NCBI RefSeq assembly: GCF_040026395.1
Contig: NZ_CP157278.1
Location: 2,976,001-3,040,000 of the forward strand
DNA length: 64,000 nucleotides
DNA from: Pedobacter lusitanus
GTDB lineage: Bacteria > Bacteroidota > Bacteroidia > Sphingobacteriales > Sphingobacteriaceae
Direction of reading: 5' to 3'
The notes beneath the pieces are model-generated. The model was not told the DNA's origin. It was given only the letters and a program-made list of their open reading frames with translations, and made no database searches. The translations under genes and the position numbers were made by a program. Below, piece by piece: positions 28,200 through 46,165 of this stretch; the first letter of the stretch is position 1; every line of letters begins with the position of its first letter.

Positions 28200-31100
28200 A
28201 TGAAATCACTTCGTTTTTATACGTCTGTTCTTTTATTAAGTTTTTTTTGTACAGAAGTCTATTCACAATATGTCCCGCCACAGCCTAGTATAAACCCTAA
28301 TATATACTCAGCTAATACTGCTGGTTTAGGACAATATGGACAGGTTCCAGTCTCATTATTTAATGGATCTGCTGATGTTAGTATTCCTATATATGAATTA
28401 AATAATAGGGGTATAAAAATTCCAATTGCACTGCATTATAGTACATCCGGAAATCGTGTCGACAACAGACCTGGGTGGGTAGGACTTGGTTGGACACTAG
28501 AGGCCGGGGGATCAATAATCAGGGTTAGTGGTAATGCCGCTGATGAATATTCAGAATCTACTGATGAGAAGCCACTTAATTATCGATCAGGTTATAAAAA
28601 ACTAGATGACCCAAACTGGAAAACGAAAACCTTCGCTAGAGAATATGGCTTAGACGGTCCCGATGAATTTGTTTTTGATTTTCTTGGTATGAGTGGTAGT
28701 TTCTTTTTTGATCATACTGGTAAATGGCAGGTCAAATCAAAGCAAAATTTGCAGCTGAATATTGTTGATGAAGTAAAAAACGATTACGAGGTAAAAAATT
28801 CCGGGGGAAGGATATCCAAGCTTCGACATACCTTGACGAAATTTATTATTACTGATATGGATGGTGTAAGGTATACTTTTGGTGGAAATGAAGATGCGAT
28901 AGAATTCACACGATCACCATACGTATCTGATTGTATAGGATGCATTACTGCGGACAATTCATTGTTAATTTCCAATGCCTGGCTTTTGCAGAAGATCGAA
29001 TCTCCTAAAGGAATCATAACTTTTAATTATAAAAGAGAGTATAGTTTTGCCGATGTTTACTATTCTGAGATACATAGAAATGAGAGAGGTCAGATCAGTC
29101 CTATAGTGGAAGAAACAAGTGATATCGATTGTACACATCGTTATATAAATTATAGTTCTTATTTGAATGAAATAAAGACAGATGACGGTACTACTATTTC
29201 ATTTGACAAATCGATTTCTAATGATTTAGTAATAGGTCAAGGGGTTGGGGGCGTTCCTCCCCGTAAGGTGGAAATATGGGAAAGTAACAATCTTGTGGAA
29301 GCCTATAATATCTATGAAAGCTTATCTGATAACCCTGGAAATCCGAGAAACTATTTCAAAATGGATAAAATACAGGTTATTGATAAAAATCAAACTGTAA
29401 CCAAAGAAATAGATTTTGATTACATAGCAAATCCAACTGAACGTTTAAAGTTATCTGGAGTTTCTTTTATCGGAGCATCTTCTCGTATCATTGAAAAAAG
29501 ATACGACTTTCAGTATAATCCTCAAAACCTTCCTGATTATTGTATTGGTAAAATAGATCATTGGGGTTTCTCTAATGGCAAGCACTACCCCTGGCCAACT
29601 GGTCCGATTAATTTCCCCGATATGGATAAATACTACCAGTCAAGAGAGCCGGATTCAAGCTTCCTTCAGGCAGAAATGCTAACAAAAATAATATATCCAA
29701 CTAAAGGGACTTCAGAATTTGTATATGAAGCACATGATTACAATAAAGTAGTGAAGCAATTTCCTATTTCGATAGAGTCTCTTTCAAATAATCTAATTGC
29801 AGGGGGACTAAGAATAAAAAAGATAATTAGTACAGATGGCATAAGCAATACGCCACTAGTCAAAGAGTATTATTATATCAATAATTATTTAAATGGTGGT
29901 ACGGTCTCCAGCGGAGTAGTGTCGGGTCTACCATCTTATTATCTAGTGGGTAATGTCTTTGCTACACCAACGGTGAGTTATCCATATCGGGTTTTTTCTA
30001 GTAATTCATTAAATAACCTGAATCATACTAATGGAAATCATGTAACTTATACAGAAGTTGTAGAGAAAATAGGTGATGGAGGATATACGAGCTATAAATA
30101 TACAAATCAGGATAATGGCTATATGGACAAAGCCCCTTTCTACTCTAAGGATGGTCTTACACCGAGAATGGCATATCTTAAATCGTTCGGAAAATTAGAA
30201 TTAGAAAGAGGACTTTTGTTGGAAAAGAAATATTTCACAACGGACAAAAGTTTATTGCGCCGGGAAACCACAGTTTACAATAGTGATCCTAATCGTTATG
30301 AAGATTATGTAAGAGGCCTTCAGGTAGAAAATCGTGCAGGATATCTTTATGGGGCAATCATAACATTCCCATTTTTCACCTTTACTCCATATATTGAAAA
30401 AAACATTGTTGTTGACTATACTTCCGAAAAGGATTCTATAATCACATCTACAAGTTATGAGTATGGGAACCTCACTCATAAACAAATGACTAAAAGCACA
30501 ACCATTAATAGCAAAGGAGAAGCAATCACAACTGAGTATAAATATCCTCAGGATTTTGCCTATAGGCGACCATATAATAATATGCTTGCGCAACATATCT
30601 GGAGGCCTTTAGTTGAGCAGAATACATATAAAACCGATATAAGTTCGGGATATATAAATGGATTGCAGATTGAGTATTATAATCCGAGAGATGGTCTTTT
30701 TGTACCTAAAACTATTTCTATGAAAGTAAGGAGTTCTGATAATAGCTGGCAACCAAAAAATCAATATCACGAGTATGATAAATATGGAAATATTTTAAGT
30801 CAGTCAAACGATAAAGGATCCAGAACAAATTATATCTGGGGATATTCAGGACAACGTCCAATAGCGAAAATTGAGAATACGAACATGACTAGTTCAGATA
30901 TTGTAATGAATACCGTATACAAGAGGGTAATGATCCCTATTGGTTCAACTTCTGCTTCAATTAATTTCACTTCTGGTACAATCGCGGATATTAAATTAGA
31001 AATTGATTCCGAACCTGGTAGCACTAATACTTTGCAGTATGTTTTATCCGGAAGTGGAACTAAATCCGGAAATTTATGTGTTAGCAGATCTAGTCAGAGT

Positions 31101-31652
31101 TGTAGTTATCCTTCAACAGTTGTATTTAATAATATGCCGGAGGGAACTTATACACTTGAAGCAAGTGCAAGTGCAGGCTCAGAAGGTCGGGTCAAAAGTA
31201 TCACAATAGCTTATACTGAAAAGCAGATACCTTCTCCCGAATTCTTTTATGAGGGATTTGAGGAAGTTAGCGATAATGTAATTACTGGAGGAGCACATTC
31301 CGGTAATAAATACTACAATACTGATTACCGAATCCCGTTAAGTTTTACTTTTACTAAGGGGAATAATTATATAATTCAATGGTGGAACTATGTCGATGAT
31401 AAATGGAATTTTAATCAACAGCCATATACTCCGGATATTTTATTGAAAGGGCCGGTTGATGATATCCGCATATTTCCTAAGGATGCTAAAATGACGACTT
31501 ATACCTATGATAGTAGTGGAAATATTACAAGTCAGACTGATGCGAAAGGTAATGTAACTAATTATGAATATGATGAATTTCAACGCCTTAATTCTGTTAA
31601 AGATCAGAATGGAAATATCCTGAAAAATAACACTTACAATTATAAAAATTAA
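28200..31652 (+). CDS. Large secreted Rhs/YD-repeat protein (first Rhs subunit, no toxin tip)
   Basis: 1150 residues with a Sec signal peptide (MKSLRFYTSVLLLSFFCTEVYSQ). The N terminus resembles the SpvB/TcB start of Tc-toxin shells (VSLFNGSADVSIPIYEL, then IPIALHYSTSG and WVGLGWTLEAGGSI). Many YD repeats follow, for example YTYDSSGNITSQTDAKGN and YEYDEFQRLNSV near the C terminus. An immunoglobulin-like, Gly/Ser-rich insertion lies at about 905-1000. It lacks the Rhs core DPxG motif and any toxin domain, so it is probably a shell or carrier partner for the next gene, which begins six bases after its stop. Confidence 0.85.
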   Translation: MKSLRFYTSVLLLSFFCTEVYSQYVPPQPSINPNIYSANTAGLGQYGQVPVSLFNGSADVSIPIYELNNRGIKIPIALHYSTSGNRVDNRPGWVGLGWTLEAGGSIIRVSGNAADEYSESTDEKPLNYRSGYKKLDDPNWKTKTFAREYGLDGPDEFVFDFLGMSGSFFFDHTGKWQVKSKQNLQLNIVDEVKNDYEVKNSGGRISKLRHTLTKFIITDMDGVRYTFGGNEDAIEFTRSPYVSDCIGCITADNSLLISNAWLLQKIESPKGIITFNYKREYSFADVYYSEIHRNERGQISPIVEETSDIDCTHRYINYSSYLNEIKTDDGTTISFDKSISNDLVIGQGVGGVPPRKVEIWESNNLVEAYNIYESLSDNPGNPRNYFKMDKIQVIDKNQTVTKEIDFDYIANPTERLKLSGVSFIGASSRIIEKRYDFQYNPQNLPDYCIGKIDHWGFSNGKHYPWPTGPINFPDMDKYYQSREPDSSFLQAEMLTKIIYPTKGTSEFVYEAHDYNKVVKQFPISIESLSNNLIAGGLRIKKIISTDGISNTPLVKEYYYINNYLNGGTVSSGVVSGLPSYYLVGNVFATPTVSYPYRVFSSNSLNNLNHTNGNHVTYTEVVEKIGDGGYTSYKYTNQDNGYMDKAPFYSKDGLTPRMAYLKSFGKLELERGLLLEKKYFTTDKSLLRRETTVYNSDPNRYEDYVRGLQVENRAGYLYGAIITFPFFTFTPYIEKNIVVDYTSEKDSIITSTSYEYGNLTHKQMTKSTTINSKGEAITTEYKYPQDFAYRRPYNNMLAQHIWRPLVEQNTYKTDISSGYINGLQIEYYNPRDGLFVPKTISMKVRSSDNSWQPKNQYHEYDKYGNILSQSNDKGSRTNYIWGYSGQRPIAKIENTNMTSSDIVMNTVYKRVMIPIGSTSASINFTSGTIADIKLEIDSEPGSTNTLQYVLSGSGTKSGNLCVSRSSQSCSYPSTVVFNNMPEGTYTLEASASAGSEGRVKSITIAYTEKQIPSPEFFYEGFEEVSDNVITGGAHSGNKYYNTDYRIPLSFTFTKGNNYIIQWWNYVDDKWNFNQQPYTPDILLKGPVDDIRIFPKDAKMTTYTYDSSGNITSQTDAKGNVTNYEYDEFQRLNSVKDQNGNILKNNTYNYKN

Positions 31653-31658
31653 GGTCCG

Positions 31659-34600
31659 ATGAAAATAAATCAATCTGTTTTTTCGTTTTTAATCTCATTT
31701 ATTTTTGCCTTAATACTAAGTCCTGGATTAGGTTATAGTCAATTAGTTAAGCTTTCTGGACCAACGACGGGGGAACATTCTTCCAACCAAAAAATTCTAT
31801 TGCTTCCTGGATTTAAGACTAGAGGACCATTTCGCGCTTTTATTGTTAAAAATTTAAATGCTAAGCTGGGATCTACTCCAAGCCAAACGCAGAATTATGT
31901 GATTACCAATACCTATAAGGAAGCTAGTAGACAGGTTTTGACAGATCCTTCCGTCCTTCAGATGAGCCAGGTTATTCAGTATTTTGATGGTCTGGGCAGA
32001 CCATTGCAGGTAATCCAAACGAAAGGTAGTTCATTGGGAAATGATGTAGTTCAGTCCGTAGTATATGATAAATATGGCCTGGAGTCAAAAAAATATTTAC
32101 CTTATGTGGATCAAAGTGGAGATGGATCTTATAAATCTGATGCGCTAAAAAGCCAGCTACAGTTTTATTCTGATTCCGGTCTCGATGTTACGGTAGTAAA
32201 AACGACAAGACCATACAGTCAAACAATTTTTGAACCCTCACCTTTGAATAGAATTACTGAGCAAGGTTTCCCGGGAGTAGTGTGGCAACCCTCAAATGTG
32301 GCTAGAACTAATGATGGGGGAAGGACAGTCCTTAGTAGTTATCGAACTAATAATAGTTCTGTTAATTATGCTGGCGACGGCTATGCCGTACGCTTATGGA
32401 ATGCTGTTCCAGTAGTTGGAGAAGAATATAAAAGAAGTTTGTCAAGCAGTAGTTATTATGAGAATGGGCAGCTTTATGTGAAAATTACAAAAGATGAAAA
32501 TTGGATAAGTGGAGATGGTAAGGCTGGGGTTACAGAAGAGTACATTGATAAAAACAACCAACTAATATTAAGACGTACTTTTAATGTTAAAGAAGGTAAA
32601 ACGGAAGTGTTGTCTTCTTATTATGTTTATGATGATTTTGGCGATCTTAGTTTTGTGCTTCCGCCAGGATCTAATCCTGACAGCGAGACAATCAGTCAGA
32701 ATAACTTAGATCTTTACTGCTACCAGTATCGTTATGATGATAGAAAACGATTGATTGAAAAGCGGATTCCTGGTATGGCTGATTGGATTGAGTTAATCTA
32801 TAATTCCCTTGATCAGTTGGTATTTAGCCAGGATCCGTTACAGCGGAAGAATAATAAAAGAAGCTTTATTAAATACGATGGTTTAGGCAGGGTGATCATG
32901 AACGGTGTGGTGAACAATTCCACAGCTACAAGAGCTCAATTACAAGAATTAGTTAACAGCCAATTAGTTAATTGGGAACGTAGGATTGCAAATTCTTCTC
33001 ATGGTTATAGTAATGAAACTCTACCCTCTGTCTCAGATTTAGAGGGACCTGAATTAGTAAATTATTATGATGATTATAGTATCGCCGGAATCCCTAGTGA
33101 CGAATCTATTAATTATAGTAAAAAACTTTATGATATGCCAACTTCAAGTAAGACCAGAGTTTTGGGAACAAATGATTTCCTCTGGGTAGTAAATTATTAT
33201 AATGATGAGGGACGAGTCGCTAAACTTTATAAGCAACATTATCTATCTGGTGTTATTGATAAGAAAAACTACGATGAGATTACTAATAGCTATAATTTTG
33301 AAGGAGCTCTGACTTTAAGTAACCGTATACATCATAGTACAAAAAGTGATAATCTGACTATTATTAATCGTTATGAATATGATCATATCGGTAGAAAGAT
33401 AAGGAGCTATGAGCAGATTGGCAGTGATAAAGAAGTATTGTTGGTAGAGAATATCTATAATGAAGTTGGGCAATTGAAGAGAAGAGAGCTGAATAATGGA
33501 GAGCAAAAGACGACTTTCACATATAATGAACGTGGTTGGCTAAAGGAAAGCACTTCAGATCAGTTCAGCCAGCAGTTAAAATACCATGATGGTACAACTC
33601 CTCAATATAATGGTAACATTTCTAATCAGCTATGGGGGGCAGGTACTACACTAAATAAAAACTTTGTGTATACCTATGACAAATTGAACAGGTTAAGTAG
33701 CGGACTTAGTAAAGAAATGAGTGAGACGTTAACCTATGACATTATGGGGAATATCCAAAGCTTGCGACGTGATGATATGATTCGTAACTATACTTACAAT
33801 GGTCATCAGTTGAGTCAGACAATTGGCGGCCCGGAAAAGTATAGTTATAAGTACGATGAGAATGGGAATACAATTGTTGATGGAAGAAGTGGGCAAGCAA
33901 TTACTTATAACAGTTTGAATCTGCCAGCTAAAATAGCTGGACTTGAACTTTCTTATTTATATGATGCTACTGGAGAAAAGTTGAAAAAGACAAGTAAAGG
34001 AGAAGTAACTGATTATATAAATGGAATTCAATATACAAAAGGTGATTTAGAACTAATTCAAACAGAAGTTGGTGTTGCCAGAAGAAATGGTACTAGCTAT
34101 AGATATGAGTATAATCTTAGTGATCATTTAGGAAATAGCCGGATGACATTTTATAAGAATCCTACCGGAAAAATTGAGATTTTGCAACAAGATGATTATT
34201 ATGCATTCGGTTTGAGGAATCCAATTAAAGTTCCATCAAGTGATAATAAGTATCTTTATAATGGGAAAGAGTTACAGGAAGAATTAGGTCAGTATGATTA
34301 CGGGGCTCGTTTTTATGATCCTGTAATAGCCAGGTGGAATGTAGTGGATCCACTTTCTGAGAAGATGAGAAGGCATTCTCCTTATAATTATGCGTTCAAT
34401 AATCCGATTAGATTTGTAGATCCTGATGGAATGGCACCACAGGGGCCCGGGCCAACTGGTACACCTATTCTTGGACTACCGCTTATGAAGCTGTTTTTGA
34501 GTTATCAAAAAGCTATCATGAAGATGGGCATGAATAATGTTGCATCAGTTTTGAATACTGTATCTAATGCCAATAATGCTGGTATGGCAAAAGGTACGGT

Positions 34601-35084
34601 GAAGGCGGAATATACAGCTGCCGCTAATCAAGGGGTTAAAAACTTAGCAGTAGGACTTGCTTTAGGGGAGGCTACAGGTGGGCTTTTAGGGCAAATAGGT
34701 AAAGGTTTGGGAGCTACAGGAGTTGGGGCTGCTGCTGCTGAAGGTGGCGCTACTACTACAGCTTTAGCTAAGTTTTATCCTGCGAATAATGGTTTTTTGG
34801 GGACTGAAGAAAGAATGTTTTTGACACCAGGAGACCAGATCAGTCGTTATGGAAGTAGTGCCGGTAAATTTTTCTCTCCAGCTGATACTCCTTTGCCAAT
34901 GAGAGCTTTGCCGCCAGGTGCAAATACAAATATTTATAATTCATATGAAGTTTTAAAGCCTTTTGAAGTGCAAACTGGTACAATTGCTCCGGCTTTTAAT
35001 CAACTTGGTTTAGGTACTCAGTACCTGTCTCCGGTATCTGCTGATATACTATTAAAGCGAGGAATTATAGCGCCATCACAATAA
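31659..35084 (+). CDS. Rhs toxin with DUF6443 N-region, Rhs core and TNT-type NAD+ glycohydrolase tip
   Basis: 1141 residues. Signal peptide, then a DUF6443-type region with SQVIQYFDGLGRPLQVIQTK, many YD repeats, then the conserved Rhs core LYNGKELQEELGQYDYGARF and [18 protein letters not shown], ending [11 protein letters not shown] at about residue 925. A linker of about 110 residues follows ([12 protein letters not shown]). The last 100 residues match the TNT (tuberculosis necrotizing toxin) domain: NNGFLG, ISRYGSSAGKFFSP, MRALPPG, IAPAFNQLGLGTQY. Arg1063 and Gln1121 correspond by motif to active-site residues of M. tuberculosis TNT, which depletes NAD+. The putative immunity gene follows four bases after the stop. 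This is the only tip in the island attached to a full Rhs shell. Confidence 0.9.
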   Translation: MKINQSVFSFLISFIFALILSPGLGYSQLVKLSGPTTGEHSSNQKILLLPGFKTRGPFRAFIVKNLNAKLGSTPSQTQNYVITNTYKEASRQVLTDPSVLQMSQVIQYFDGLGRPLQVIQTKGSSLGNDVVQSVVYDKYGLESKKYLPYVDQSGDGSYKSDALKSQLQFYSDSGLDVTVVKTTRPYSQTIFEPSPLNRITEQGFPGVVWQPSNVARTNDGGRTVLSSYRTNNSSVNYAGDGYAVRLWNAVPVVGEEYKRSLSSSSYYENGQLYVKITKDENWISGDGKAGVTEEYIDKNNQLILRRTFNVKEGKTEVLSSYYVYDDFGDLSFVLPPGSNPDSETISQNNLDLYCYQYRYDDRKRLIEKRIPGMADWIELIYNSLDQLVFSQDPLQRKNNKRSFIKYDGLGRVIMNGVVNNSTATRAQLQELVNSQLVNWERRIANSSHGYSNETLPSVSDLEGPELVNYYDDYSIAGIPSDESINYSKKLYDMPTSSKTRVLGTNDFLWVVNYYNDEGRVAKLYKQHYLSGVIDKKNYDEITNSYNFEGALTLSNRIHHSTKSDNLTIINRYEYDHIGRKIRSYEQIGSDKEVLLVENIYNEVGQLKRRELNNGEQKTTFTYNERGWLKESTSDQFSQQLKYHDGTTPQYNGNISNQLWGAGTTLNKNFVYTYDKLNRLSSGLSKEMSETLTYDIMGNIQSLRRDDMIRNYTYNGHQLSQTIGGPEKYSYKYDENGNTIVDGRSGQAITYNSLNLPAKIAGLELSYLYDATGEKLKKTSKGEVTDYINGIQYTKGDLELIQTEVGVARRNGTSYRYEYNLSDHLGNSRMTFYKNPTGKIEILQQDDYYAFGLRNPIKVPSSDNKYLYNGKELQEELGQYDYGARFYDPVIARWNVVDPLSEKMRRHSPYNYAFNNPIRFVDPDGMAPQGPGPTGTPILGLPLMKLFLSYQKAIMKMGMNNVASVLNTVSNANNAGMAKGTVKAEYTAAANQGVKNLAVGLALGEATGGLLGQIGKGLGATGVGAAAAEGGATTTALAKFYPANNGFLGTEERMFLTPGDQISRYGSSAGKFFSPADTPLPMRALPPGANTNIYNSYEVLKPFEVQTGTIAPAFNQLGLGTQYLSPVSADILLKRGIIAPSQ
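34291..34708 (+). repeat. Copy A of a 418-bp Rhs core-linker segment
   Basis: Runs from the DYGARFYDP codons to just before the TNT domain. It aligns without gaps to 37882-38299 ahead of the first orphan tip; both copies are exactly 418 bp and differ only by scattered, mostly synonymous changes. It is an obvious substrate for homologous exchange of toxin tips. Confidence 0.85.
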
Positions 35085-35088: not shown

Positions 35089-35322
35089 ATGAATAGAGAG
35101 GAATTAAAACAAAAATTAGAGGAACTTAATGTATACCCAGGTTTTTATTCGCTAAACGGTGAACTTCTACCTGACCGAATTGTATTGAATCATAATTATG
35201 ATAAATGGGAGGTATTCTATTTCGATGAAAGGGGGAATCGAGACAGTGAAAAGACTTTTTCTTCTGAAAATGATGCTTGCAATTATATTTATAGGTACTT
35301 TATAAGACAAAAGGGAATTTAG
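35089..35322 (+). CDS. Putative immunity protein for the TNT tip
   Basis: 77-residue acidic soluble protein without a signal peptide, beginning four bases after the Rhs-TNT stop. Sequence features: NVYPGFYSLNGELLPDRIVL, then WEVFYFDERGNRDSEKTF and a C-terminal helix. Size, cytosolic location, position and acidity fit an immunity protein that neutralises the NAD+ glycohydrolase in the producing cell. I do not recognise the family by name. A strong terminator follows, ending the Rhs operon. Confidence 0.75.
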   Translation: MNREELKQKLEELNVYPGFYSLNGELLPDRIVLNHNYDKWEVFYFDERGNRDSEKTFSSENDACNYIYRYFIRQKGI

Positions 35323-35332: not shown

Positions 35333-35380
35333 AATAAGCAAAAGATCCTGGTTCAAAAGAGCCAGGATCTTTTGCTTATT
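35333..35380 (+). terminator. Strong terminator of the Rhs-TNT operon
   Basis: 22-base arms (35333-35354 and 35359-35380) with one mismatch and an AAAA loop; the descending arm includes TTTTGCTTATT. It closes the active Rhs operon. Confidence 0.85.
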
Positions 35381-35912: not shown

Positions 35913-36950
35913 ATGAGTGGTATTGAAAAAGACAGCTACAGAAGTTTCTTGTCAGAAATAAAAAACAAAGTGTATCAGGCGCAATACGAGGCGATGAAGC
36001 AAGTGAATACCAGGCTTGTTACACTCTATTGGGAGATCGGGAAAAATATCATAGAAAAGTAGAAAGAACATGGTTGGGGCAAATCAGTTGTGGAACAATT
36101 GGCGGAAGACCTACAAAAAGAATTCGCAGGAATGGAGGGCTTGAGTAGCCGGAATATATGGCGCATGCGTATGTTTTATAGCACTTACGAAAAACTGCCA
36201 CCAATGGTGGCAGAAATTGGGTGGAGCCACAATATCCTGATTATTGAGAAGTGTAAAGATGAATTGGAGCGCCAGTTTTATATTGGAATGACCAAAAAAT
36301 ACGGCTGGACAAAGAACGTATTGATTCATCACATTGAAGGCAAAAGCTATGAGCGTTTTTTATTAGGACAAACCAACTTTGATAAGACTGTAGAAGAAAA
36401 GTATCGAAAACAGGCTAAACTATCGGTAAGAGATGAATACAACTTTGAGTTTTTGGAGCTAAAAGATCAGCACGAAGAAAAAGAACTCGAAACGGCCATT
36501 ATAAAAAATATGCGAAGCTTTCTAATAGAAATGGGAGGTGACTTTACTTTTGTGAGTAATCAATACCGTTTAGAGGTTGGGGATGAAAATTACTATATCG
36601 ATATATTGCTTTATCATAGACGCTTAAAATCTTTAGTGGCCATTGAGCTCAAGACAGGAAAATTCAAGCCTGAGTATGCAGGTAAAATGAACTTTTATCT
36701 ATCGGTACTGAACGATAAAGTGCGTCTGGAAGGTGAAAATCCCTCTATTGGGATCATTGTATGCAAAGAGAAGAACCGGACAACAGTTGAGTATGCGCTG
36801 AATGAGGTAAGGCAGCCAATCGGAGTCGCCTCTTACCGGGTAACGGCAAGTTTGCCAAACGATTATAAAGATCTATTGCCAACGCCTGAAACGATTATCG
36901 AGAGTATATCAGGTATTATTGGCAATCTTCCGGCAACAGAAGAAGAATAG
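35913..36950 (+). pseudogene. DUF1016 (YhcG-type) PD-(D/E)XK nuclease, interrupted by an amber codon
   Basis: Full-length frame of about 345 codons from ATG 35913, broken once by TAG at 36060-36062, where homologues have a charged or polar residue; a single C to T change in CAG would create it. Before the stop: ATG-SGIEKDSYRSFLSEIK, then TRLVTLYWEIGKNIIEK. After it: GWGKSVVEQLAEDLQKEF, then the nuclease core YIDILLYHRRLKSLVAIELK with the Asp and ExK active-site residues intact. YhcG/DUF1016 genes often travel with restriction or defence loci. An internal GTG at 36090 could express the nuclease half alone. Nothing else in the frame is damaged, suggesting a recent lesion. Confidence 0.85.
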
Positions 36951-37783: not shown

Positions 37784-37917
37784 CAAATAAAAAACTAACT
37801 TTACGAGAAAGGAAAGTTCTTTATAGCACCGAAAAAGTGCAGCCAGAAAACCTGGCAAACCTAAAAAAAGTTGCATAAGGGAGTATGATTACGGGGCAAG
37901 GTTCTATGATCCTGTAG
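37784..37917 (+). repeat. Leader repeat R1 ahead of orphan tip 1
   Basis: First of four near-identical leaders of about 135 bp. Order of elements: CAAATAAAAAACTAACTTTAC with a TAACTTTA resembling a -7 box; a pair AACTTT/AAAGTT; a small hairpin from the GCACC...AGTGC pair; a third pair CCAG/CTGG; a poly-A stretch; TTGCATAAGGG; then the Rhs core codons for DYGARFYDP. In R1 a TTG lies 18 bases before TAACTTTA, giving a plausible -33 box. The corresponding ATG of R2 and R3 is ATA here. Confidence 0.8.
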
Positions 37918-38299: not shown

Positions 38300-38681
38300 A
38301 AAGGGAACGTCTGTAGGGGCTGCTGAAGCAACTACAACGTTGTATCGAGGTGTAAATGAATCCCATCCAGGCTTCAAAAATGCAATGAACGGTGTAGCGG
38401 AACCAATTGGTGGAAATGCATCAGCAGCAGCACACAATTCGGGAAATACAGCTAGCTTTTTTACATCATGGTCAACAAATCCCGACGTCGCAACAAATTT
38501 TGCCTTGCGACCAAATGGCTCTGGTGTTATGATGGAAGTTACAGTTCCTACAAGTAGCACAGTAGCAAGTCCGAGCCTATTAAATATACAACTCAAGGGA
38601 ACCAAGACTGTGGTAAATGAATCAGAGGTGTTATTAAGGGGGACTGTAAGTGGTGCCAAAGTAACGCCTGTAAAACCTTAA
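37935..38681 (+). CDS. Orphan Rhs tip 1: ADP-ribosyltransferase-like toxin domain
   Basis: The frame is open from 37827 with no ATG; GTG 37935 is the first possible start, so the tip is probably silent unless recombined into a full Rhs gene. Residues 1-125 repeat the Rhs core end and linker of the TNT gene. The last 115 residues form a new domain with features of R-S-E ADP-ribosyltransferases: Arg138 in LYRGV, Ser178-Thr181 in FTSWSTN, and the ExE pair Glu229 and Glu231 in NESEVLLRG. These enzymes transfer ADP-ribose from NAD+ to protein, typically arginine when ExE is present. The assignment rests on motifs only. The next gene is its likely immunity partner. Confidence 0.7.
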
Positions 38682-38685
38682 ATTG

Positions 38686-38955
38686 ATGATAAATATGGAA
38701 AAGTTTCCGCAATTGAAAGATAGGCAGGTAGCATTATTAAGAGCAGATATTAATACTGGTATTGTATTAGATAGGAATTATATTTATGCAACTACATCAG
38801 ATCAGGAAGTTTATACAGTTTTTGATGATATAAATTCTGCTATAAGATCTGCTAAGGCAATTATAGCAGAAAAAAAAGACATAGAATGTGGGATTTATGG
38901 AAACGATCCAGTCGCACTTTTAATATTAACTAGGGACAATATAGGCTTGTATTAA
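38686..38955 (+). CDS. Putative immunity protein for orphan tip 1
   Basis: 89-residue soluble protein starting four bases after the tip 1 stop. Not recognised. It contains RQVALLRADINTGIVLDRNY and a C-terminal DPVALLILTRDNIGLY. Its position directly behind a toxin-like tip, its size, and the lack of a signal peptide suggest a cytosolic immunity protein, consistent with an intracellular NAD+-using toxin. ATG 38686 and ATG 38695 are both possible starts. Even a silent tip would need this gene to be expressed for protection, so an own promoter is expected, but none is obvious. Confidence 0.6.
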   Translation: MINMEKFPQLKDRQVALLRADINTGIVLDRNYIYATTSDQEVYTVFDDINSAIRSAKAIIAEKKDIECGIYGNDPVALLILTRDNIGLY

Positions 38956-39022: not shown

Positions 39023-39217
39023 TTATGTGCTGCGATCTTTTCGAGTATTTGGATTCCTAATAAAGGCTACAAGAATAAGTAAATTTTTATTGCCGTATTC
39101 TGGCAGATCTTCTATCTCTTGTATCCTTTTTACTGTCTTTTTATCAAAAGAGGCACTGGTACATTCACCGCTGATATAATCCAAAGCGACTTCAAGAGTC
39201 TGGGCTATCTTTGTTGT
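39023..39217 (-). pseudogene. XRE-type regulator, C-terminal remnant (upstream of tip 2)
   Basis: On the minus strand an intact frame of about 64 codons reads KIAQTLEVALDYISGECTSA, then KKTVKRIQEIEDLPE, ending with a stop at 39023. It is the last part of a helix-turn-helix (XRE) regulator without its N-terminal DNA-binding half. A closely related remnant precedes tip 3. It runs opposite to the leader repeat and the tip. Confidence 0.7.
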
Positions 39218-39363
39218 GACAAATGTTTTAACGAATCAGCACTGGCATTCATAGTTTCGCACTTTCAAACTAGAATCTCTAACAAAAAAGCCAAACATGT
39301 CCAACAAATAAACACAAATAAAGCACTAACTTTACTTTAAAGGAAAGTTCTTTATGGCACTGA
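39218..39363. other. Gap between XRE remnant and orphan tip 2
   Basis: No gene; only the 5' part of leader repeat R2 and degraded sequence related to the region upstream of R1 and R3. Confidence 0.5.
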
Positions 39364-39450
39364 AAAAGTGCAGCCGGCAAATCCGGCAAACCCGTAAAAA
39401 GTCGCATAAGGGTACACGATTACGGCGCGAGGTTCTATGATCCGGTTATA
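39315..39450 (+). repeat. Leader repeat R2 ahead of orphan tip 2
   Basis: Same order of elements as R1, with the hairpin sequences in their clearest form: AACTTT/AAAGTT, GCACTGAAAAAGTGC and GCCGGCAAATCCGGC. An ATG at 39355 opens a 28-codon frame that ends in the Rhs-tip start region; the ATG is shared only with R3. Confidence 0.85.
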
Positions 39451-39486
39451 GGAAGATGGAGCGTTGTTGATCCGCTAGCGGAGAAG

Positions 39487-40230
39487 ATGATGACATGGTC
39501 TCCATATACCTACGCATTCAACAACCCAATAAGGTTTATTGATGTTGGTGGAGAATATCCTTGGCCAGTTCAAATACGTTCTTTTATATCTACTTCTACA
39601 ACTGGAGGCGGCTTATTTAGAGGAGATGGCAGAGGGGCTTCTTTTTCTGGTACGTCTAGGGTTCGTTCTAATTTTACTGTTGATCCTTCAGCAAGATCGG
39701 TTTCGCAACCGATTACAAGAAGTGATCCTACAGTATTCTATGGGTTTAGAAATCCTACTCCAGGCGGAGTGAGTTTACCTCCTGCAGCAAAAACCGGCTC
39801 TCCAGAAGGAACAAATGATAATATTAGCTTTTCCGGTAACAAGGCTTCTTTTGATTTTAGCCATTCTGGTAAAGATCCCTTAACACCAGGTTTTGCTACC
39901 CCTGCATTAGATGTTCACGCCTCACTTTCTTTTAATGAAGATATGAAAAATGGTGTGTTGACAATAATGGGTTCTTTTACTGGAGATAAGTTTCCAAGTA
40001 CAGAGGCTTTCGTTACCGATCAATCTGGAAAAACAAAGCTATTTTTGGGAGCACAGATGGAGAATGGTGGGATTGGCGATTTATATGGAGATAATAATAA
40101 GCCATTGTTTAATGTCAACATGCAAGTTAAATTTGATGGTAAAGGGAATTTCACAGGAGTACAAGTTGGAAAGGCTTCTTATACTGTAGCAGAATGGAAT
40201 AAAAAAGTACAAGAGGATTTTAAGAAATGA
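39487..40230 (+). CDS. Orphan Rhs tip 2: unrecognised toxin domain
   Basis: Frame open from 39364; the first ATG is 39487, inside the core (residues just after DPLAEK), so the natural product would arise only after recombination into a full Rhs protein. It begins with the Rhs core ([19 protein letters not shown]) and continues with a Gly/Ser-rich linker. The last ~115 residues are a beta-rich domain I do not recognise ([20 protein letters not shown], then [20 protein letters not shown]). The partner gene encodes a lipoprotein, so the target is probably in the envelope or periplasm. Stop and start overlap by four bases (ATGA). Confidence 0.6.
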
Positions 40231-40691
40231 GAACAACATTAATATTTCTTTCATTATTATTTATAATGATTGGTTGCAGTACAGGTGGCGAACAAGAAGT
40301 GCTGGTTGTGCCCAAAAACTTTAAGGGATATGTATTAGTGATCTTTGATCAAAAAAATGGTCAGCCAATCAGGTATATGGGAAAAAAGAGAGTATATGAA
40401 ATACCTGCAAATGGTATATTAAAGACGCAGTTTAAGGTTAATAACGGTTGGCGGGATTTAACGGAGTACTATGTTAATGAAATCTCTCCCGAAAATATGC
40501 TGCCTTCTTTTGTTGAGGCTGAAAAAATTCCAAAAGGTAAAACAGTAGGTTTTATGGGAGAGACAGGTACAGTCAAAAAGAATAGTAAGAGTACGGAAAG
40601 GGTAGAGTTCAGCGAATTCTATATAGGTGCCAGATCAGATATAGAAAAAGCAAAAAATCTCGTAGAAAAATTGGATATAGCTAACTTATAG
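40227..40691 (+). CDS. Lipoprotein, putative immunity protein for tip 2 (DUF6843-like)
   Basis: 154 residues with a lipoprotein signal peptide (lipobox IGC, Cys17). The mature part starts [20 protein letters not shown] and [18 protein letters not shown], which I associate with the DUF6843 family of small Bacteroidota lipoproteins, but only from memory of the motif. The four-base overlap with the toxin gene shows coupled translation. A membrane-anchored immunity protein indicates a toxin acting in the periplasm or at a membrane. A terminator follows (40716-40741). Confidence 0.7.
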
Positions 40692-40715: not shown

Positions 40716-40741
40716 AAAGCCCGGCATAAATGTTGGGCTTT
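40716..40741 (+). terminator. Terminator after tip 2 immunity gene
   Basis: AAAGCCCGGCA pairs with TGTTGGGCTTT (two G-T pairs in RNA), loop TAAA, 25 bases after the stop. Confidence 0.65.
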
Positions 40742-40746
40742 GCTGT

Positions 40747-40963
40747 TTATTGACCGTAAGCTTTTCTGGCATTAGCATCTCTAAGAAATGCATCAATAAT
40801 CACCAGTAAGTGAGTTCTGTCGTTTTCGGGCAGGTCTTCTATCTCCTGTATCTTTTTTACTATCTTTTTATCAAAAGAGGCACTGGTACCTTCACCGCCG
40901 ATATAGTCCAAAGTGACTTCAAAAGCCTGGGCAATCTTTTTGGCTACTTCTATAGAAGGAATG
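40747..40963 (-). pseudogene. XRE-type regulator, C-terminal remnant (upstream of tip 3)
   Basis: Minus-strand frame of about 72 codons reading PSIEVAKKIAQAFEVTLDYI, then KKIVKKIQEIEDLPENDRTH, with a stop at 40747. The N-terminal half of the helix-turn-helix regulator is missing, and beyond 40963 the sequence departs into the leader repeat region. Strongly similar to the remnant ahead of tip 2 but with a longer and better preserved C terminus. Confidence 0.8.
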
Positions 40964-41072
40964 GCTTGGCCTTAAGCGTGAAATCTCGAATAAAAAACGT
41001 GAACCCTTCCAACGGAGTAAACTCAAATAAAGCACTAACTTTACTGTAAAGGAAAGTTCTTTATGGCACTGA
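40964..41072. other. Gap ahead of orphan tip 3
   Basis: No gene. Contains the degenerate end of the regulator remnant and the start of leader repeat R3. Confidence 0.5.
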
Positions 41073-41160
41073 AAAAGTGCAGGCGGCAAATCCGGCAAAC
41101 CCAAAAAAAGTTGCATAAGGGAGTACGATTACGGGGCGAGGTTCTATGATCCGGTAATTG
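41024..41160 (+). repeat. Leader repeat R3 ahead of orphan tip 3
   Basis: Same composition as R2, including TAACTTTA, the ATG at 41063 of the short frame, the GCACT/AGTGC hairpin and the GCGGC/CCGGC pair (one mismatch). It ends where the Rhs core codons begin. Confidence 0.85.
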
Positions 41161-41261
41161 GACGTTTCAATACCATAGATCCACTTTCTGAGAAGAGCAG
41201 GCGTTTCTCTCCGTATGTTTATGGGAATAACAATCCGATCAGATTCATTGATCCTGACGGG

Positions 41262-41900
41262 ATGGAAGGTCTGGATATTATCTATAGAAACAGGTTAACC
41301 AATAAAGAAGTAGGTCGTACTGCATTGCCAGGGAAAGATGTAACAAGATATACGGATGCAAAAAATCAGGCTGAATTAATAGCAAATAACTTTGATCAGC
41401 CTCAGGTAAGTGCGGCAACTAATACATCTGGAACTGCAACTGCTCCTCAAGCTGCTCAGCGTGTTGATTATCAAGACATGTCGCAGCCAACAACGAGTTT
41501 AGCTGTTGCTAATAACGTTGCTACTGGCTTTGCATATGAGTATGTCGGAGCTAAAGTACTGAGTGGAGTTAGCTCTCTTTTTACCGCTAGCGAAACAGGA
41601 AGAGTATTTTGGTCAGGCGGAGAAGTTGCGAAAACAGCAGCAGCAGACTTTGCAAAAGCAAATGGAATGAAAACTTTAGAAATGACAACAACAGGTCGTG
41701 CGATGAATAGTATTAGCCCTTATTTACCTCGTTCTGCTACCAATCCTGTTTGGAATAGTCTGTCAAGAAGCTTTGCGAATGGAGCATCAGGGGAGGCTCA
41801 TTTCTTTACAATACCTGCCGGCCCTAGATCTGGAAGTATTTGGTTGAATGTTGAAAAACCAATTTTAGAACAAAATGCTGTTAAGATAATAAGTCATTAA
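41262..41900 (+). CDS. Orphan Rhs tip 3: CD38/ADP-ribosyl-cyclase-like toxin domain
   Basis: Frame open from 41073, first ATG 41262, so silent on its own. The core end ([19 protein letters not shown]) lies before the ATG. Residues about 113-205 have the order of motifs seen in CD38 and Aplysia ADP-ribosyl cyclase: VFWSGG with Trp117, TLEMT with Glu140 (CD38 Trp125 and Glu146), a [16 protein letters not shown] segment (Trp164), and VEKPIL with Glu198 at the place of the catalytic Glu226 of CD38 (Glu179 in Aplysia). Such enzymes consume NAD+. Spacing between the first two motifs (23 residues) is close to CD38 (21). Cysteines typical of CD38 are absent, as expected for a bacterial protein. The next gene is the likely immunity partner. 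Confidence 0.72.
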
Positions 41901-41914
41901 TTTATAACATCACC

Positions 41915-42265
41915 ATGAATATTTTTAAACTATTTTATCCAAAAAGCTCTATGAAGAGAAAAATACTTGATATAAAAGATGATATTGAAAAACTTATCAT
42001 GCATTATTGTGAAGAGAAATTTTGGATAGAGTGGTATGGTGCATATGATATAGATCCTAAGCACTTAGTTTTTTGGATTTGTATTCAATCAGATGAAATG
42101 AAGTTAAATCTTAAAGTAAATTCTGAATTAATTAACAAACTGAGAAATATTCTTATTAAAAACAATTATCCTGAGCAAGCAAGGCAATACGTTTCTATAG
42201 ATTTTGAATCACAAGAGACCGTGAATAGAGAATCGGCTGGTAACTGGTATCAACATTTTAAATAA
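41915..42265 (+). CDS. Putative immunity protein for orphan tip 3
   Basis: 116 residues, no signal peptide, starting 14 bases after the tip 3 stop. Rich in Lys, Ile and Asn, with a Trp-containing centre (IEWYGAYDIDPKHLVFWICI) and an N-terminal helix. It does not resemble a family I know. Position, size and cytosolic nature fit an inhibitor of an NAD+-consuming toxin. Confidence 0.6.
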   Translation: MNIFKLFYPKSSMKRKILDIKDDIEKLIMHYCEEKFWIEWYGAYDIDPKHLVFWICIQSDEMKLNLKVNSELINKLRNILIKNNYPEQARQYVSIDFESQETVNRESAGNWYQHFK

Positions 42266-42373: not shown

Positions 42374-42500
42374 CAAATAAAAAACTAACTTTACCTGAAA
42401 GGAAAGTTCTCTATCGCACTGAAAGAGTGCAGCCAACAAATCCGGTAAACCTAAAAAAGTTGTATAAGGGTGCACGATTATGGAGTAAGGTTTTATGATC
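42374..42500 (+). repeat. Leader repeat R4 ahead of orphan tip 4
   Basis: Same element order as R1-R3, but more diverged: ATC replaces the ATG of R2/R3, the GCACT/AGTGC hairpin is kept (GCACTGAAAGAGTGC), and the third pair is degenerate (CCAACAAATCCGG). A GTG at 42470 opens the tip frame. Confidence 0.8.
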
Positions 42501-43243
42501 CGGTGATAGGCCGTTTCAATACCATAGATCCACTTTCTGAAACATCAAGGAGATTTAGTCCTTACAGCTACGCCCTTAATAATCCCATTCGTTTCATAGA
42601 TGTTGATGGTATGTATGCAGCAAGTCCAATTTATGGTCGCAATGGTGACTTTTTGGGAACAGATGATGAAGGATTAAAGGGACAGGCAATTGTGATGAAA
42701 AAAGAAGACTTCAGTCAAGGAATGAGTCACGAGGAAGCAAAAAGTAAAAGCGTCTATAAAGAGGGTGATCCGAATTTCGGATTTGCTGATGAAAAGGCCG
42801 CATTAAAATATGCAAATCATTATGTTAATTTGAAAAATCGCCCTGATTATGATGGAAAGTTAACTTTAGGCGAAGCTAACGAATGGTATAGGACTGGCGA
42901 AGGAAAGCCTTTATTTGTCAATGCCTCAAAAATAGATTTGGCTCCTGTTTATCAGGGTGATCTCAGTGCAGGTGATAGTAAGTATGTGAATTTTGCTTCA
43001 CCTGATAATGCTAATTTTGAAACTGGTCTTGTTTATGGGACAATAAAATTGACATTAGTTGGTGGAAATAAAGTGAAGCTTGGTGGAAATAACAGTGTTT
43101 TGGATACTTATGATTTTGACTATCAAAAAGGAAGAACAGGAAGGAACGTTGCTACGTGGATGGGTAAGACTGTAGCGGGAGAAGGTACAGGTTATACTAT
43201 TTACAATTATGGTACTGCACTCCTTCAAAAAAGACCGAAGTAA
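42470..43243 (+). CDS. Orphan Rhs tip 4: colicin-M-like toxin domain
   Basis: 257 residues from GTG 42470, covering the Rhs core ([15 protein letters not shown], then [12 protein letters not shown]) and a linker with [20 protein letters not shown]. The last ~90 residues carry Asp212-Thr-Tyr214-Asp215-Phe-Asp, then Arg222, matching the spacing of the colicin M catalytic set Asp226, Tyr228, Asp229, His235, Arg236 except that His235 is a Gly (Gly221). Colicin M cleaves lipid II precursors in the periplasm. The lipoprotein immunity partner fits a periplasmic target. The His loss means activity is uncertain, and the match is to a short motif only. Confidence 0.6.
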
Positions 43244-43282: not shown

Positions 43283-43789
43283 ATGAAAAAAGCATATGTA
43301 AAATTAGTTATTCCTACTCTGATAGTTTTAATTTTTGGATGTCAAAGTAGTTATTTTAAGAATGATCTTCCCCAGATATTGGGTGTGGAGAAAGTAGATG
43401 TTGAAAGTTTTAGTACTAAAGATGAATTTGGAGGGTTTGGGGAAGGTTATACCTTAGAAAAGTATAAGCTGTCAAAAGTAACCATTGATGAATTTCAGGG
43501 GGGGCGATCTAAGCTACTTCCTGTTAAAGATGGCGGATGGCAAAGATATGGTTGGAGTAAAGCCCCTATTGATAGTTCATTTAAGGAAGTAATTTATATG
43601 CCCTTAAGTTACTATGATGGGAATAAGAAATTAGAAATAGTGCTTCAACAAGTTAAAAAATCTTTAGAGCGAGCTGATGTATATTATGCATTTTATTATA
43701 AGTCAGATAGGTCCAATCCACAAAGTGTTCAACTATTTGTTGTAGACATAAGATCTAGAGAGCTGTATGCTATAGACATAGCTATATAA
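43283..43789 (+). CDS. Lipoprotein, putative immunity protein for tip 4
   Basis: 168 residues with a lipoprotein signal peptide (VLIFGC, Cys20). The mature protein is beta-rich, with EKYKLSKVTIDEFQGGRSKL and many Tyr, not a family I recognise. Located 39 bases after the tip 4 stop. As with tip 2, membrane anchoring suggests it protects against an envelope-acting toxin, consistent with a colicin-M-like partner. Confidence 0.65.
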   Translation: MKKAYVKLVIPTLIVLIFGCQSSYFKNDLPQILGVEKVDVESFSTKDEFGGFGEGYTLEKYKLSKVTIDEFQGGRSKLLPVKDGGWQRYGWSKAPIDSSFKEVIYMPLSYYDGNKKLEIVLQQVKKSLERADVYYAFYYKSDRSNPQSVQLFVVDIRSRELYAIDIAI

Positions 43790-43853
43790 TTACGAATTTG
43801 TTTTGCTGATTAGCCAGTATGCTGCATAATATGATAAATAATACAAATATTGA

Positions 43854-44042
43854 TTTGATAAATTGTTTAGAAAAGATGAAGGTAATGTTGTAGTCCTAAA
43901 ATTGGATGGTTTAAGGTACTCAAGTCAATACACAGTATTCATTACGCTTCCTATCACAACTCAGCGAGAGGTGATTAGAGTTGAAGATGAATCCTTAAAA
44001 GAAGCAATTGTGATAGCTTTGAATAAGTTTATTAAAATCTGA
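43854..44042 (+). pseudogene. Partial immunity-like ORF without clear start
   Basis: Frame open from 43854 to the stop at 44042, with a possible TTG start at 43863. It encodes about 59 residues of small-protein character (KDEGNVVVLKLDGLRY, then TQREVIRVEDESLKEAIVIA), like a cytosolic immunity protein or half of one. No matching toxin tip remains directly upstream. Probably a leftover of another cassette. Confidence 0.45.
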
Positions 44043-44057
44043 TAAAGGAACCATTAA

Positions 44058-44160
44058 CATAGAATTCCTTTACCACGTTTGATGGAAGTAGGAGATTCTG
44101 TCGGAAAGATTGATTTTAATTCATATCAGGCGCAAGGCGAGCCTGTGAAGAATTTTGTGT
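44058..44160 (+). pseudogene. Left half of a module disrupted by IS256
   Basis: Short frame PLPRLMEVGDSVGKIDFNSY, then QAQGEPVKNFV, ending at the left end of the insertion sequence. The right half appears beyond the element (45472 onward). Not recognised. Confidence 0.45.
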
Positions 44161-45472
44161 AAGTGGTCAACCGTATTGAGTTTAAAGGAGACATCTATTT
44201 TCAAATATAATACTAAACTGATTAATAATTTTACCCCAATCTCTTACTGGCATCGTCCATTTTTTCTGGATATTCATGACCGATAAGTAGAAAGCCTTGA
44301 TTGCAGCCTGGTCGTCAGGAAACAAGTTTTTGGACTTGATGAATTTCCTTATGCCGCTGTTCAGGCTTTCAATGACATTGGTGGTATAAATGATTTTTCG
44401 GATTTCCAGGGGGAAGTCAAAGTAACTGGTCAACTCATCCCAGTTCTTCTCCCAGCTTAAAATAGCATAACCATACTTACTTTTCCATTTTACTGTGAAA
44501 TCATCCAGGGCTGATCTGGCGGTATCTTTATTTACTGCACCATAAATCTGTTTAAGATCCATCGAAAACTCTTTACGTTCCTTCCAGACCACATATTTAC
44601 AACTATTACGAATTTGATGTACGACGCAAAGCTGGGTTATTGTTTTGGGAAATACCTCGGCAATGGCCTTTGTAAAGCCAGTAAGATTATCTGTACAGGC
44701 GATCAAGATATCCTCTACACCTCTGGCACGCAAATCTGTAAGCACACTTAGCCAGAATGATGCACTCTCGGTTTCGTTGATCCACATGCCCAAAATCTCT
44801 TTCAGGCCATCATGTTTTAGGCCAATTACCAAGTAAATACATTTGCTAACCACCTTTCCGTTGTGGCGTACCTTAAACTGAATACCGTCCATCCAACAAG
44901 TAAAATAAACAGGCTCTAAGGGGCGGGATTGCCATTCCTTGATCTTCTCCACAACCCGGCTTGTAACAGTAGAAACTGTACTTTCAGAGATTTCGACCCC
45001 GTACATTTCACGAATCTGGTCTTCAATATCACGAGTACTCATTCCACGGGAATACATCCCGATAATGCTTTGCTCAATCTGCTCGCTCATACGCTGGTGC
45101 TTGGGGATCAGTTTAGGCTCAAAGCTTGCATTACGATCTCGTGGAATTGACAATACCACATCCCCAAGAGTCTCACTCTTGACCTTTTTGCTACTGAAAC
45201 CGTTACGGGAATTACCGCTGCCGCGGCCTTCTGGAGAATGCTTTTCATAGCCAAGGTGCTCATCAAGCTCTCCCTGGAGCATTTCATTGACTCCTTGTTT
45301 GAACATTTCCTGAAAGAATTCCTGGAACTGTTCCTTGGACTTAAACTGCTTGAAAAAGTCCTTTGGTAAACCTAACTTGTTCTCTTCCATATGACTGTAA
45401 TTAAAGTTCTGAATTTATTCCTTTAAATACAATGCAATAGACCACACCTATTTTATCGTTTACACAAAATTC
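44150..45472 (-). mobile_element. IS256-family insertion sequence
   Basis: About 1.32 kb. The ends carry GAATTTTGTGTAA (44150-44162) and its exact complement (45460-45472). It contains one transposase gene filling the element. No clear 8-9 bp target duplication is visible at these ends, so either the boundaries are a few bases off or one flank has been rearranged. Confidence 0.85.
44182..45390 (-). CDS. IS256-family transposase
   Basis: 402 residues, full length for the family (mutator-like DDE transposases). Catalytic positions are visible: Asp in CWMDGIQFKV, Asp in ACTDNLTGFTKAI and Glu in TTNVIESLNSGIRKF, with the following conserved segments YWCVVHQIRNS-like (LCVVHQIRNSCKYV) and FPDDQAAIKAFYLS intact. 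The first 130 residues include MLQGELDEHLGYEKHSPEGR and the GNSRNGFSSKKVKSETLGDV zinc/HTH region typical of these proteins. No frameshift or stop. The ATG at 45390 is the expected start. Confidence 0.95.
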   Translation of the reverse strand: MEENKLGLPKDFFKQFKSKEQFQEFFQEMFKQGVNEMLQGELDEHLGYEKHSPEGRGSGNSRNGFSSKKVKSETLGDVVLSIPRDRNASFEPKLIPKHQRMSEQIEQSIIGMYSRGMSTRDIEDQIREMYGVEISESTVSTVTSRVVEKIKEWQSRPLEPVYFTCWMDGIQFKVRHNGKVVSKCIYLVIGLKHDGLKEILGMWINETESASFWLSVLTDLRARGVEDILIACTDNLTGFTKAIAEVFPKTITQLCVVHQIRNSCKYVVWKERKEFSMDLKQIYGAVNKDTARSALDDFTVKWKSKYGYAILSWEKNWDELTSYFDFPLEIRKIIYTTNVIESLNSGIRKFIKSKNLFPDDQAAIKAFYLSVMNIQKKWTMPVRDWGKIINQFSIIFENRCLL

Positions 45473-45780: not shown

Positions 45781-46070
45781 CCTGATAAGATCGGATCTTT
45801 TAATAGCAAATTTGTTTCGAAGAAGAAGCAAAGAGTTAGATCCTTAAGAGTCTTTTCAATAAATTTCTTCAGCTGGTATCCTATCCAACTTTTTTCTCTA
45901 TTCTTTCTGATAAGTCTATACGCCCAGTTTCTGCACTCAGTTTTGCATTAAGTTTTTGCAACAAGTCTCTGCACCCAGTCTTTCCACCCTTCCCCCCTTT
46001 GAAGAGCAGATTTTTCCTTTCTGTTCATTAATTGGTTTTCCTGCAAAGTAATGATTCAACCTATAGAAAT
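45727..46070. other. Non-coding stretch between Rhs island and GDPD gene
   Basis: No gene seen. It contains the regulator remnant at its start, an AAAGATCC/GGATCTTT hairpin at 45775-45800, and a pyrimidine-rich stretch. Confidence 0.5.
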
Positions 46071-46150
46071 AAAAAAGCGGGTTTATGCTTTCGCAGACAT
46101 CAGGGCCCTCTTCGGGCACGTAGTCTGCGAAAGCATAAACCCGCTTTTTT
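46071..46150. terminator. Perfect 28-bp stem, likely bidirectional terminator
   Basis: Arms 46071-46098 and 46123-46150 are perfectly complementary, with A and T tracts at the outer ends and a 24-base loop that contains a second small hairpin (GCCC/GGGC at 46105-46117). It lies 15 bases downstream of the GDPD gene stop. Confidence 0.8.
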
Positions 46151-46165
46151 ATCCCTCCCTTAACC

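Follow-up and report, generated by a model that had tools for sequence, protein, structure and literature searches.

A row of orphan Rhs toxin tips in Pedobacter lusitanus and a putative recombinase-bearing element that may displace them

Results

Complete and orphan Rhs genes in the window

A 64,000-nt window of the Pedobacter lusitanus genome (GCF_040026395.1, NZ_CP157278.1) holds one complete Rhs gene, a shell with a toxin tip attached, followed by four orphan Rhs tips, each with a small open reading frame (ORF) behind it. Here we describe this array together with a unit, found intact elsewhere in the same genome, that carries an ATPase gene (A), two tyrosine recombinase genes (B and C) and a helix-turn-helix (HTH) gene, and whose past insertions may have built the array. 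Coordinates are positions in the window, the whole stretch of DNA analyzed, unless the whole genome is stated, and the features are collected in Table 1.

As an earlier note on this DNA had claimed, a single tip is joined to a complete shell: the complete Rhs gene ends in a TNT domain (PF14021, E 2.1e-24 in Pfam) and contains a full Rhs-associated core (NCBIfam). The Rhs core was also matched in all four orphan tips (E 1.4e-24 to 1.4e-28). Again as claimed, the four are cut at one codon of this core, with GATTA(C/T)GG, encoding D-Y-G, opening every orphan tip at its first base and recurring at the junction in the complete gene. The window therefore has the layout of an Rhs toxin locus, a core and then a variable tip, in the complete gene and in four orphans. 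A small ORF does follow each tip, the TNT tip included; the immunity role that the earlier note gave these partners rests on position, because four of the five match no Pfam family and one matches DUF6843. The broken fifth tip of that note was not recovered: there is no fifth Rhs core in the window at E ≤ 1, and 43790–44180 holds ORF fragments only.

The leader and the intact unit

Upstream of the orphan tips in the window, ~90–110 bases are held in common (repeat families D1, D2 and D4). A search of the 6.05-Mb genome, which is one contig, returned ten full copies of this leader, all scoring at least 122 bits, the next match having 33 bits. Each of the ten directly precedes an orphan Rhs core, and they are grouped in three arrays near 3.01, 3.26 and 4.70 Mb, two besides that of the window. 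Classed by the length of their open frames, 7 Rhs cores of the genome are complete and 14 are orphans. With ten full copies only, all at orphan Rhs tips, a general repeat was ruled out.

Among 41 genomes, that of P. lusitanus included, leader matches at E ≤ 0.1 were present in 15, many of them very short; clear matches outside P. lusitanus came from five genomes (G001, G010, G013, G014 and G015). In these relatives, a longer conserved stretch ends with the leader, which in intact copies lies after ORFs A, B and C. Outside the genus, the recognizable part of the leader is, by eye, approximately the last 26 nt. In this context, the leader resembles the right end of an element that integrates site-specifically. 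The common sequence that the earlier note called a leader is thus real, but it is best read as the end of an element.

Intact units have the order tip, candidate immunity gene, HTH gene (reverse strand), ATPase gene A, recombinase genes B and C, and leader. In the array at 3.26 Mb, two such units of 6,173 bp stand in tandem with zero mismatches between them. Each copy begins with the first Rhs-core bases at the junction, continues through the tip, the small gene, the HTH gene and genes A, B and C, and closes with noncoding DNA whose last part is the leader. The first copy starts within the complete rhs gene, and the second finishes with the leader that precedes a different tip. In the relative G013, a stretch of 4,457 bp, which reaches from A-B-C across the right end into the first part of the tip, is repeated at 99.2% identity, again before different tips.

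The genome also contains one shell with two different tips. Over 2.7 kb, the array at 3.26 Mb and that at 4.70 Mb have shells with 94.3% identity; counted per 100 alignment columns, identity is 88–100% from ~2.3 kb upstream as far as the junction, then 61% in the next block and 23–51% after that, and the tips differ. As the G013 shell is only ~71–72% identical to shells 2 and 3 of P. lusitanus, a same-locus comparison with that genome was not possible.

In the window, what is left of the unit is fragmentary. The remnant of gene C that follows the TNT partner gene covers the C-terminal 122 codons and has 72% nucleotide identity to the intact gene C of G013, and the right-end region that ends in leader copy 1 is 84–87% identical to the right ends of intact units in P. 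lusitanus and G013. Spacers 2 and 3 retain remnants of the HTH gene. Recombinase genes are therefore represented by B and C in intact units and by the C remnant alone in the window. We infer that the four leaders mark four past integrations whose element genes have since decayed.

Table 1. Features of the Rhs array in the 64,000-nt window
Feature	Position	Strand	Basis
First Rhs-type ORF of shell, 1150 aa	28200–31652	+	ORF
Complete Rhs gene: DUF6443, RHS repeat, Rhs core, TNT toxin tip	31659–35084	+	Pfam, NCBIfam
Junction core GATTACGG (codons D-Y-G) in complete gene, shell/tip side	34296–34303	+	Boundary set by tandem units
Small ORF behind TNT tip, candidate immunity gene	35089–35322	+	ORF, without Pfam match
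Remnant of recombinase gene C, C-terminal 122 codons	35420–35788	+	Phage_integrase E 8.6e-5, under family cut-off
YhcG/DUF1016 PDDEXK nuclease gene, between C remnant and right-end region	36063–36950	+	Pfam
Right-end region of element, ending in leader copy 1 (37777–37886)	36953–37886	+	Identity to intact right ends
Orphan Rhs tip 1	37887–38681	+	Rhs core
Small ORF behind tip 1, candidate immunity gene	38683–38955	+	ORF, without Pfam match
Short remnant of HTH gene, spacer 2	39078–39212	-	Repeat family D5, 85% identical to 40805–40939
Leader copy 2	39309–39417	+	Repeat family, genome search
Orphan Rhs tip 2	39418–40230	+	Rhs core
Small ORF behind tip 2, DUF6843, candidate immunity gene	40227–40691	+	PF20862, E 1.1e-13
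Remnant of HTH gene, spacer 3	40718–40967	-	92% identical to intact unit
Leader copy 3	41017–41126	+	Repeat family, genome search
Orphan Rhs tip 3	41127–41900	+	Rhs core
Small ORF behind tip 3, candidate immunity gene	41915–42265	+	ORF, without Pfam match
Leader copy 4	42374–42475	+	Repeat family, genome search
Orphan Rhs tip 4	42476–43243	+	Rhs core
Small ORF behind tip 4, candidate immunity gene	43283–43789	+	ORF, without Pfam match

Three further features of the window were noted. The intact units that we compared have no YhcG/DUF1016 gene at the place where one stands here. A strong inverted repeat behind the TNT partner gene (35333–35380) fits a terminator for both strands; an Rfam scan of these bases gave a chance mir-578 match on both strands, far under the family cut-off. 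The array is closed by a Mutator-type transposase gene on the minus strand (44182–45390; PF00872, E 1.7e-111).

Proteins of the unit

In intact copies, A has ~540 aa and B and C ~300 aa each, and the HTH gene lies before A on the opposite strand. Both B and C match the Pfam Phage_integrase family (E 4.1e-38 and 1.9e-9, respectively) and the XerC/XerD models of NCBIfam, the latter under those models' own cut-offs. Both were scored for the motif HxxR-GH-Y. B keeps it in 62 of 64 copies; C keeps it in 1 of 59, with R-GH-Y kept in 57 of 59.

A matched no recombinase family. It had no match in the Pfam copy that was scanned and one weak NCBIfam match far below its cut-off, and sequence searches of PADLOC and PDB with A returned nothing informative. 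All 120 A homologues listed (among 5,592 at E ≤ 1e-5 and 7,999 scored) carry Pfam family PF27228. An AlphaFold2 model of A (mean pLDDT 73, pTM 0.63, weak around residues 204–280) had MCM helicases as its best Foldseek matches (E 1.7e-9); among the matches listed, the TM-score was at most 0.42 by query and up to 0.61 by target.

Related loci in other genomes

For a census of A we used one genome per GTDB species. Relatives of A are encoded in 354 stretches, of which the best 80 were kept, giving 76 distinct loci. An Rhs core, detected with a profile built partly from the cores of these same loci, is present in 66 of the 76, versus none of 27 control loci, which were shorter; a plain Rhs-core motif search of the control loci (81,586 bp) also gave zero matches. 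The core lies ≤4.5 kb upstream of A in 29 of the 30 loci with at least 4.5 kb of upstream sequence and ≤6 kb downstream in 21 of the 29 with at least 6 kb downstream. Cores flank A on both sides in 23 loci, and all 102 core matches share the strand of A. Two recombinase ORFs follow A in 62 of the 76 loci, one in 6 and none in 1 (L106); 7 loci end at once. Core ORFs downstream of A are short (median 296 aa), with at least 150 residues before the core in 1 of 27 and an NGKE-type stretch in none of the 27; those upstream are longer, with at least 150 residues before the core in 16 of 38 and an NGKE-type stretch in 12 of 38. Locus titles are mostly Bacteroidota, and titles from other phyla belong to metagenome bins.

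Some of these loci, nearly all through contig edges, stop short of the flank limit. GATTA stands exactly at 5 of 52 such ends. Of 48 such starts, 6 have it within their first 12 bases, and one of these six (L129) is a different place in rhs. GATTA has a background of 1.2% per 12-base window. The loci with GATTA edges come from Pedobacter, Mucilaginibacter and one metagenome bin labeled Spirochaeta. Overlapping contig ends were considered as proof of circles and dropped, as no overlap of at least 10 bases was found in the one-unit contigs L096, L099, L104 and L108; exact ends alone were used. Discrete ends at one target sequence are thus seen in tandem units, at contig edges and, as described below, in sister strains.

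In some loci the cut, judged by eye, seems to lie near YPFG or YRYG and not at DYG. These cuts were seen in the downstream tips of L117, L120, L126, L144, L150, L157, L163, L167, L168 and L170, and such loci may represent element lineages that target other points of this gene region. One locus from a Flammeovirgaceae metagenome-assembled genome (L133) has five Rhs cores serially upstream of A, in ORFs of 299–383 aa, forming a large one-sided array.

More distant relatives of A are found on plasmids. A translated search of plasmid records found 27 with A relatives under 60% identity; the ten listed have 28–36% identity and carry toprim or CHC2-zinc-finger annotations. With a longer relative as query, 34 records were found. 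Pfam placed a CHC2 zinc ribbon and toprim domains in all three relatives scanned (Aureispira, Enterobacter and E. coli). Together, the MCM-like fold predicted for A and the primase domains of its distant relatives suggest that a circle formed by the unit could replicate.

Ten plasmid contexts were inspected. In Aureispira and Aureibacter, an Rhs gene is followed by a small gene, an HTH gene, A, two genes in the recombinase position and an Rhs tip, after which the same small gene, HTH gene and A recur, as judged by accession. In the Proteobacteria Paraburkholderia, Pseudomonas and Enterobacter, the gene in front is a filamentous-hemagglutinin, TpsA2 or hemagglutinin-repeat gene, followed by HTH, A and xerC and then by headless tips or small genes; accessions are repeated in tandem on the Pseudomonas and Enterobacter plasmids. 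Janthinobacterium combines an FG-GAP-repeat gene with the module and with small genes that include an Imm26 gene, and the annotation of a Leptospira noguchii record is too sparse to judge. Pseudomonas, Enterobacter and Lonsdalea units also contain genes of VbhA, RelE/ParE or SymE type, and a SymE-type gene lies beside the HTH gene in E. coli units (L181, L182, L184 and L185). Such genes may stabilize the unit.

Two circular records are small. That of Lonsdalea (11,289 bp) lacks an annotated shell and carries xerC, primase and HTH genes together with immunity and nuclease-type genes. In that of Shigella flexneri (8,758 bp), bases 1–8657 align at 99.0% identity with a single tandem period from an E. 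coli rhs array. These circles are sequence records of relatives and may or may not reflect excision of the unit in a form that can reintegrate. A phage origin found no support: a scan of viral contigs that relies on two peptide patterns returned no relative of A, and phage records gave two weak matches, both from one halovirus.

E. coli sister strains

The xerC gene of the Shigella circle occurs at 186 places, all chromosomal, in 53 of 5,426 E. coli genomes. A second xerC variant is present in 4 E. coli genomes and lies beside cdiA in the strain inspected. The shell that adjoins xerC was found in 235 E. coli genomes, in 185 of them at ≥80% coverage.

Seven E. coli strains were compared between ansP and nhoA. 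M8 and GF54 have one tip and VCSW7 has another, all without xerC. Ec-U10, likewise without xerC, has a different tip, with the immunity gene of M8 downstream. KW21 has one HTH-primase-xerC unit and then the immunity gene of Ec-U10, and D6 and SCU-113 have two units each. In SCU-111, two xerC genes lie behind an Rhs gene, also adjoining yddH-nhoA. Bases 8458–20814 of Ec-U10 correspond to 1–12350 of KW21 at 99.2% identity, and 20738–34253 correspond to 20063–33578 at 99.8%; the extra 7.7 kb of KW21 sits inside rhs, at a 77-base core overlap. The attached tip of one strain is thus an orphan in another, with the same junction. A comparison of sister strains was the check proposed in the earlier note; in these E. 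coli relatives of the system, the arrangement is not fixed. Exchange of tips at a fixed codon, which that note had postulated, is supported both by these strains and by the pair of like shells with unlike tips in P. lusitanus.

Discussion

We consider it likely that site-specific elements integrated repeatedly at one codon of the Rhs core, each time displacing an older tip, and that the array is the trail they left. Formation of a circle would join the leader to the unit's own tip. B, aided by C, would then recombine this leader/tip junction with the junction between shell and old tip inside rhs, fusing the new tip in frame to the shell and leaving the old tip and its immunity gene behind the leader as a presumably unexpressed orphan. 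The genes of the element would decay afterwards, with leaders and scraps remaining, as in the window. A would help to replicate or mobilize the circle, and the retained immunity genes may protect against kin that still use the old toxin.

Several observations weigh against this scheme. The window itself has no intact A-B-C, and 4 of the 14 orphan cores in the genome (at 3,255,065, 3,258,254, 3,262,413 and 4,697,798) have no leader. The histidine of HxxR is missing from 58 of 59 copies of C, which therefore may be non-catalytic. Tandem copies might also stem from unequal crossing over, and small circular records may be real or may be tandem repeats collapsed during assembly; no A gene is annotated on that of Shigella flexneri. 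Among the E. coli strains, the step from M8 to Ec-U10 displaces a tip though xerC is absent, the Imm8 tip that is attached in KW21, D6 and SCU-113 has no accompanying element, and rhs is annotated as broken in both KW21 and SCU-113. Finally, on a Leptospira kirschneri plasmid (L176), an HTH gene, a primase-like A and two recombinase genes adjoin parA with no annotated toxin; perhaps this module serves plasmid upkeep.

Could homologous recombination of the RecA type, acting between the Rhs cores of circle and shell as in the model of Jackson et al., 2009, drive displacement, with the recombinase genes merely hitchhiking? Rhs cores are similar enough to recombine, and both the leaderless orphans and the change from M8 to Ec-U10 would be accommodated. 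Nonetheless, we regard this explanation as unlikely. Homologous recombination would scatter breakpoints, but the ten leader-bearing orphans break at a single codon and the same noncoding leader ends at that codon every time; moreover, A-B-C genes stand beside Rhs, on one strand, across many genera.

The earlier note saw in the array a silent store with tip switching; the shell would draw its tips from there through recombination or gene conversion, much as pilins vary. The array does contain four orphan frames that look intact and have partner genes, and shell and orphans could in principle recombine. The anatomy, however, is that of former tips displaced by incoming elements: the shell-adjacent tip of array 2 came with a whole element, in two identical copies, the spacers contain decayed element parts, and the E. 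coli series gains tips beside the shell while older ones stay behind. We therefore think a store very improbable.

Slightly less probable still is that the leader is a promoter or structured RNA, serving free-standing orphan toxins or their regulation. Its ~110 conserved nt contain short inverted repeats, and a motif like TAnnTTTG lies upstream of several copies. As an RNA, the leader was supported neither by an Rfam scan at a permissive threshold, which placed no family on it, nor by a consensus fold computed from 19 of the 29 leader matches (−3.25 kcal/mol, with a covariation term of +0.15 and a two-sided change in 1 of 13 pairs), and in other genera only the terminal 26 nt or so mentioned above can be recognized by eye. 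An integron-like array, in which the leader would be an attC-type site and a separate integrase would gather tip cassettes, can be practically dismissed: integrons do have serial cassettes behind one expression point, and here too there are serial cassettes, a common site and tyrosine recombinases nearby, but intact units carry their own recombinases (62 of 76 loci), fusion occurs inside a reading frame, folding and covariation do not support a folded site, and XerC/XerD models fit B better than the integron integrase model does.

Beyond displacement by site-specific integration in P. lusitanus, we lean, with less assurance, toward a broader proposal. Across phyla, self-mobilizing and possibly self-replicating circles, equipped with an MCM-like ATPase or primase-helicase, tyrosine recombinases and an HTH protein, would specialize on polymorphic toxin genes. 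They would integrate at a conserved point in Rhs or CdiA/TpsA-type genes, swap the tip together with its immunity gene, carry tips between loci and species, and build many of the orphan arrays.

How does this relate to known systems? Displacement of Rhs C termini was described by Jackson et al., 2009 (PMC2935791), who postulated a circular intermediate with no known integrase. As in their account, a new tip here joins the shell and old tips with their partner genes are shunted downstream; unlike in theirs, the unit has recombinases, an ATPase and fixed ends. If our proposal is true, such circles would be the integrase-bearing episome missing from the 2009 model. In Ornithobacterium hominis (PMC6421346, PMC13183296), one large rhs gene is likewise accompanied by many displaced tips that vary between strains and are ascribed to displacement; in the parts considered, no recombinase unit is tied to that array, and ATPase A was not searched for in this species.

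Recombinase genes beside toxin or immunity loci also have precedents. In the rAID arrays of Bacteroidota (PMC12247911), a tyrosine recombinase adjoins a row of orphan immunity genes, as here; rAIDs consist of immunity genes only, whereas in our array Rhs-core tips alternate with partner genes and are inserted into a toxin gene. GInt (PMC5385486; core ginABCD) and SE (PMC10214605; core intA, tfp, intB and srap) resemble the unit in having several proteins of the tyrosine recombinase family, site-specific integration and circular forms, and both carry varied cargo. Unlike these elements, with three recombinase-family core genes or intA-tfp-intB-srap, the unit has two recombinase genes, an MCM-like ATPase or primase-helicase and an HTH gene, and its cargo is a toxin tip that becomes fused to the target gene. 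Zhang et al., 2012 (PMC3482391) noted XerC/D beside some polyimmunity loci, and the portion of Poole et al., 2011 (PMC3150448) considered does not mention integrase, recombinase or transposase. In the parts of the open-licence PMC literature that were searched, to which most subscription papers do not belong, we found no recombinase unit that swaps Rhs or CdiA tips. Judged against these sources, displacement and orphan arrays were already known, in Bacteroidota as well, and the new part is the element unit with its recombinases.

The exchange of tips, and the pile-up of displaced tips with their antidotes, had lacked an enzyme. With a defined unit that has recombinases, a fixed junction and a helicase-like ATPase, tip exchange becomes directly testable, and ATPase A (PF27228) provides a marker for loci where tips may move. 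If the scheme is true, insertion of the element would re-arm the target gene and not break it, which would be an unusual bargain for mobile DNA to strike with a host.

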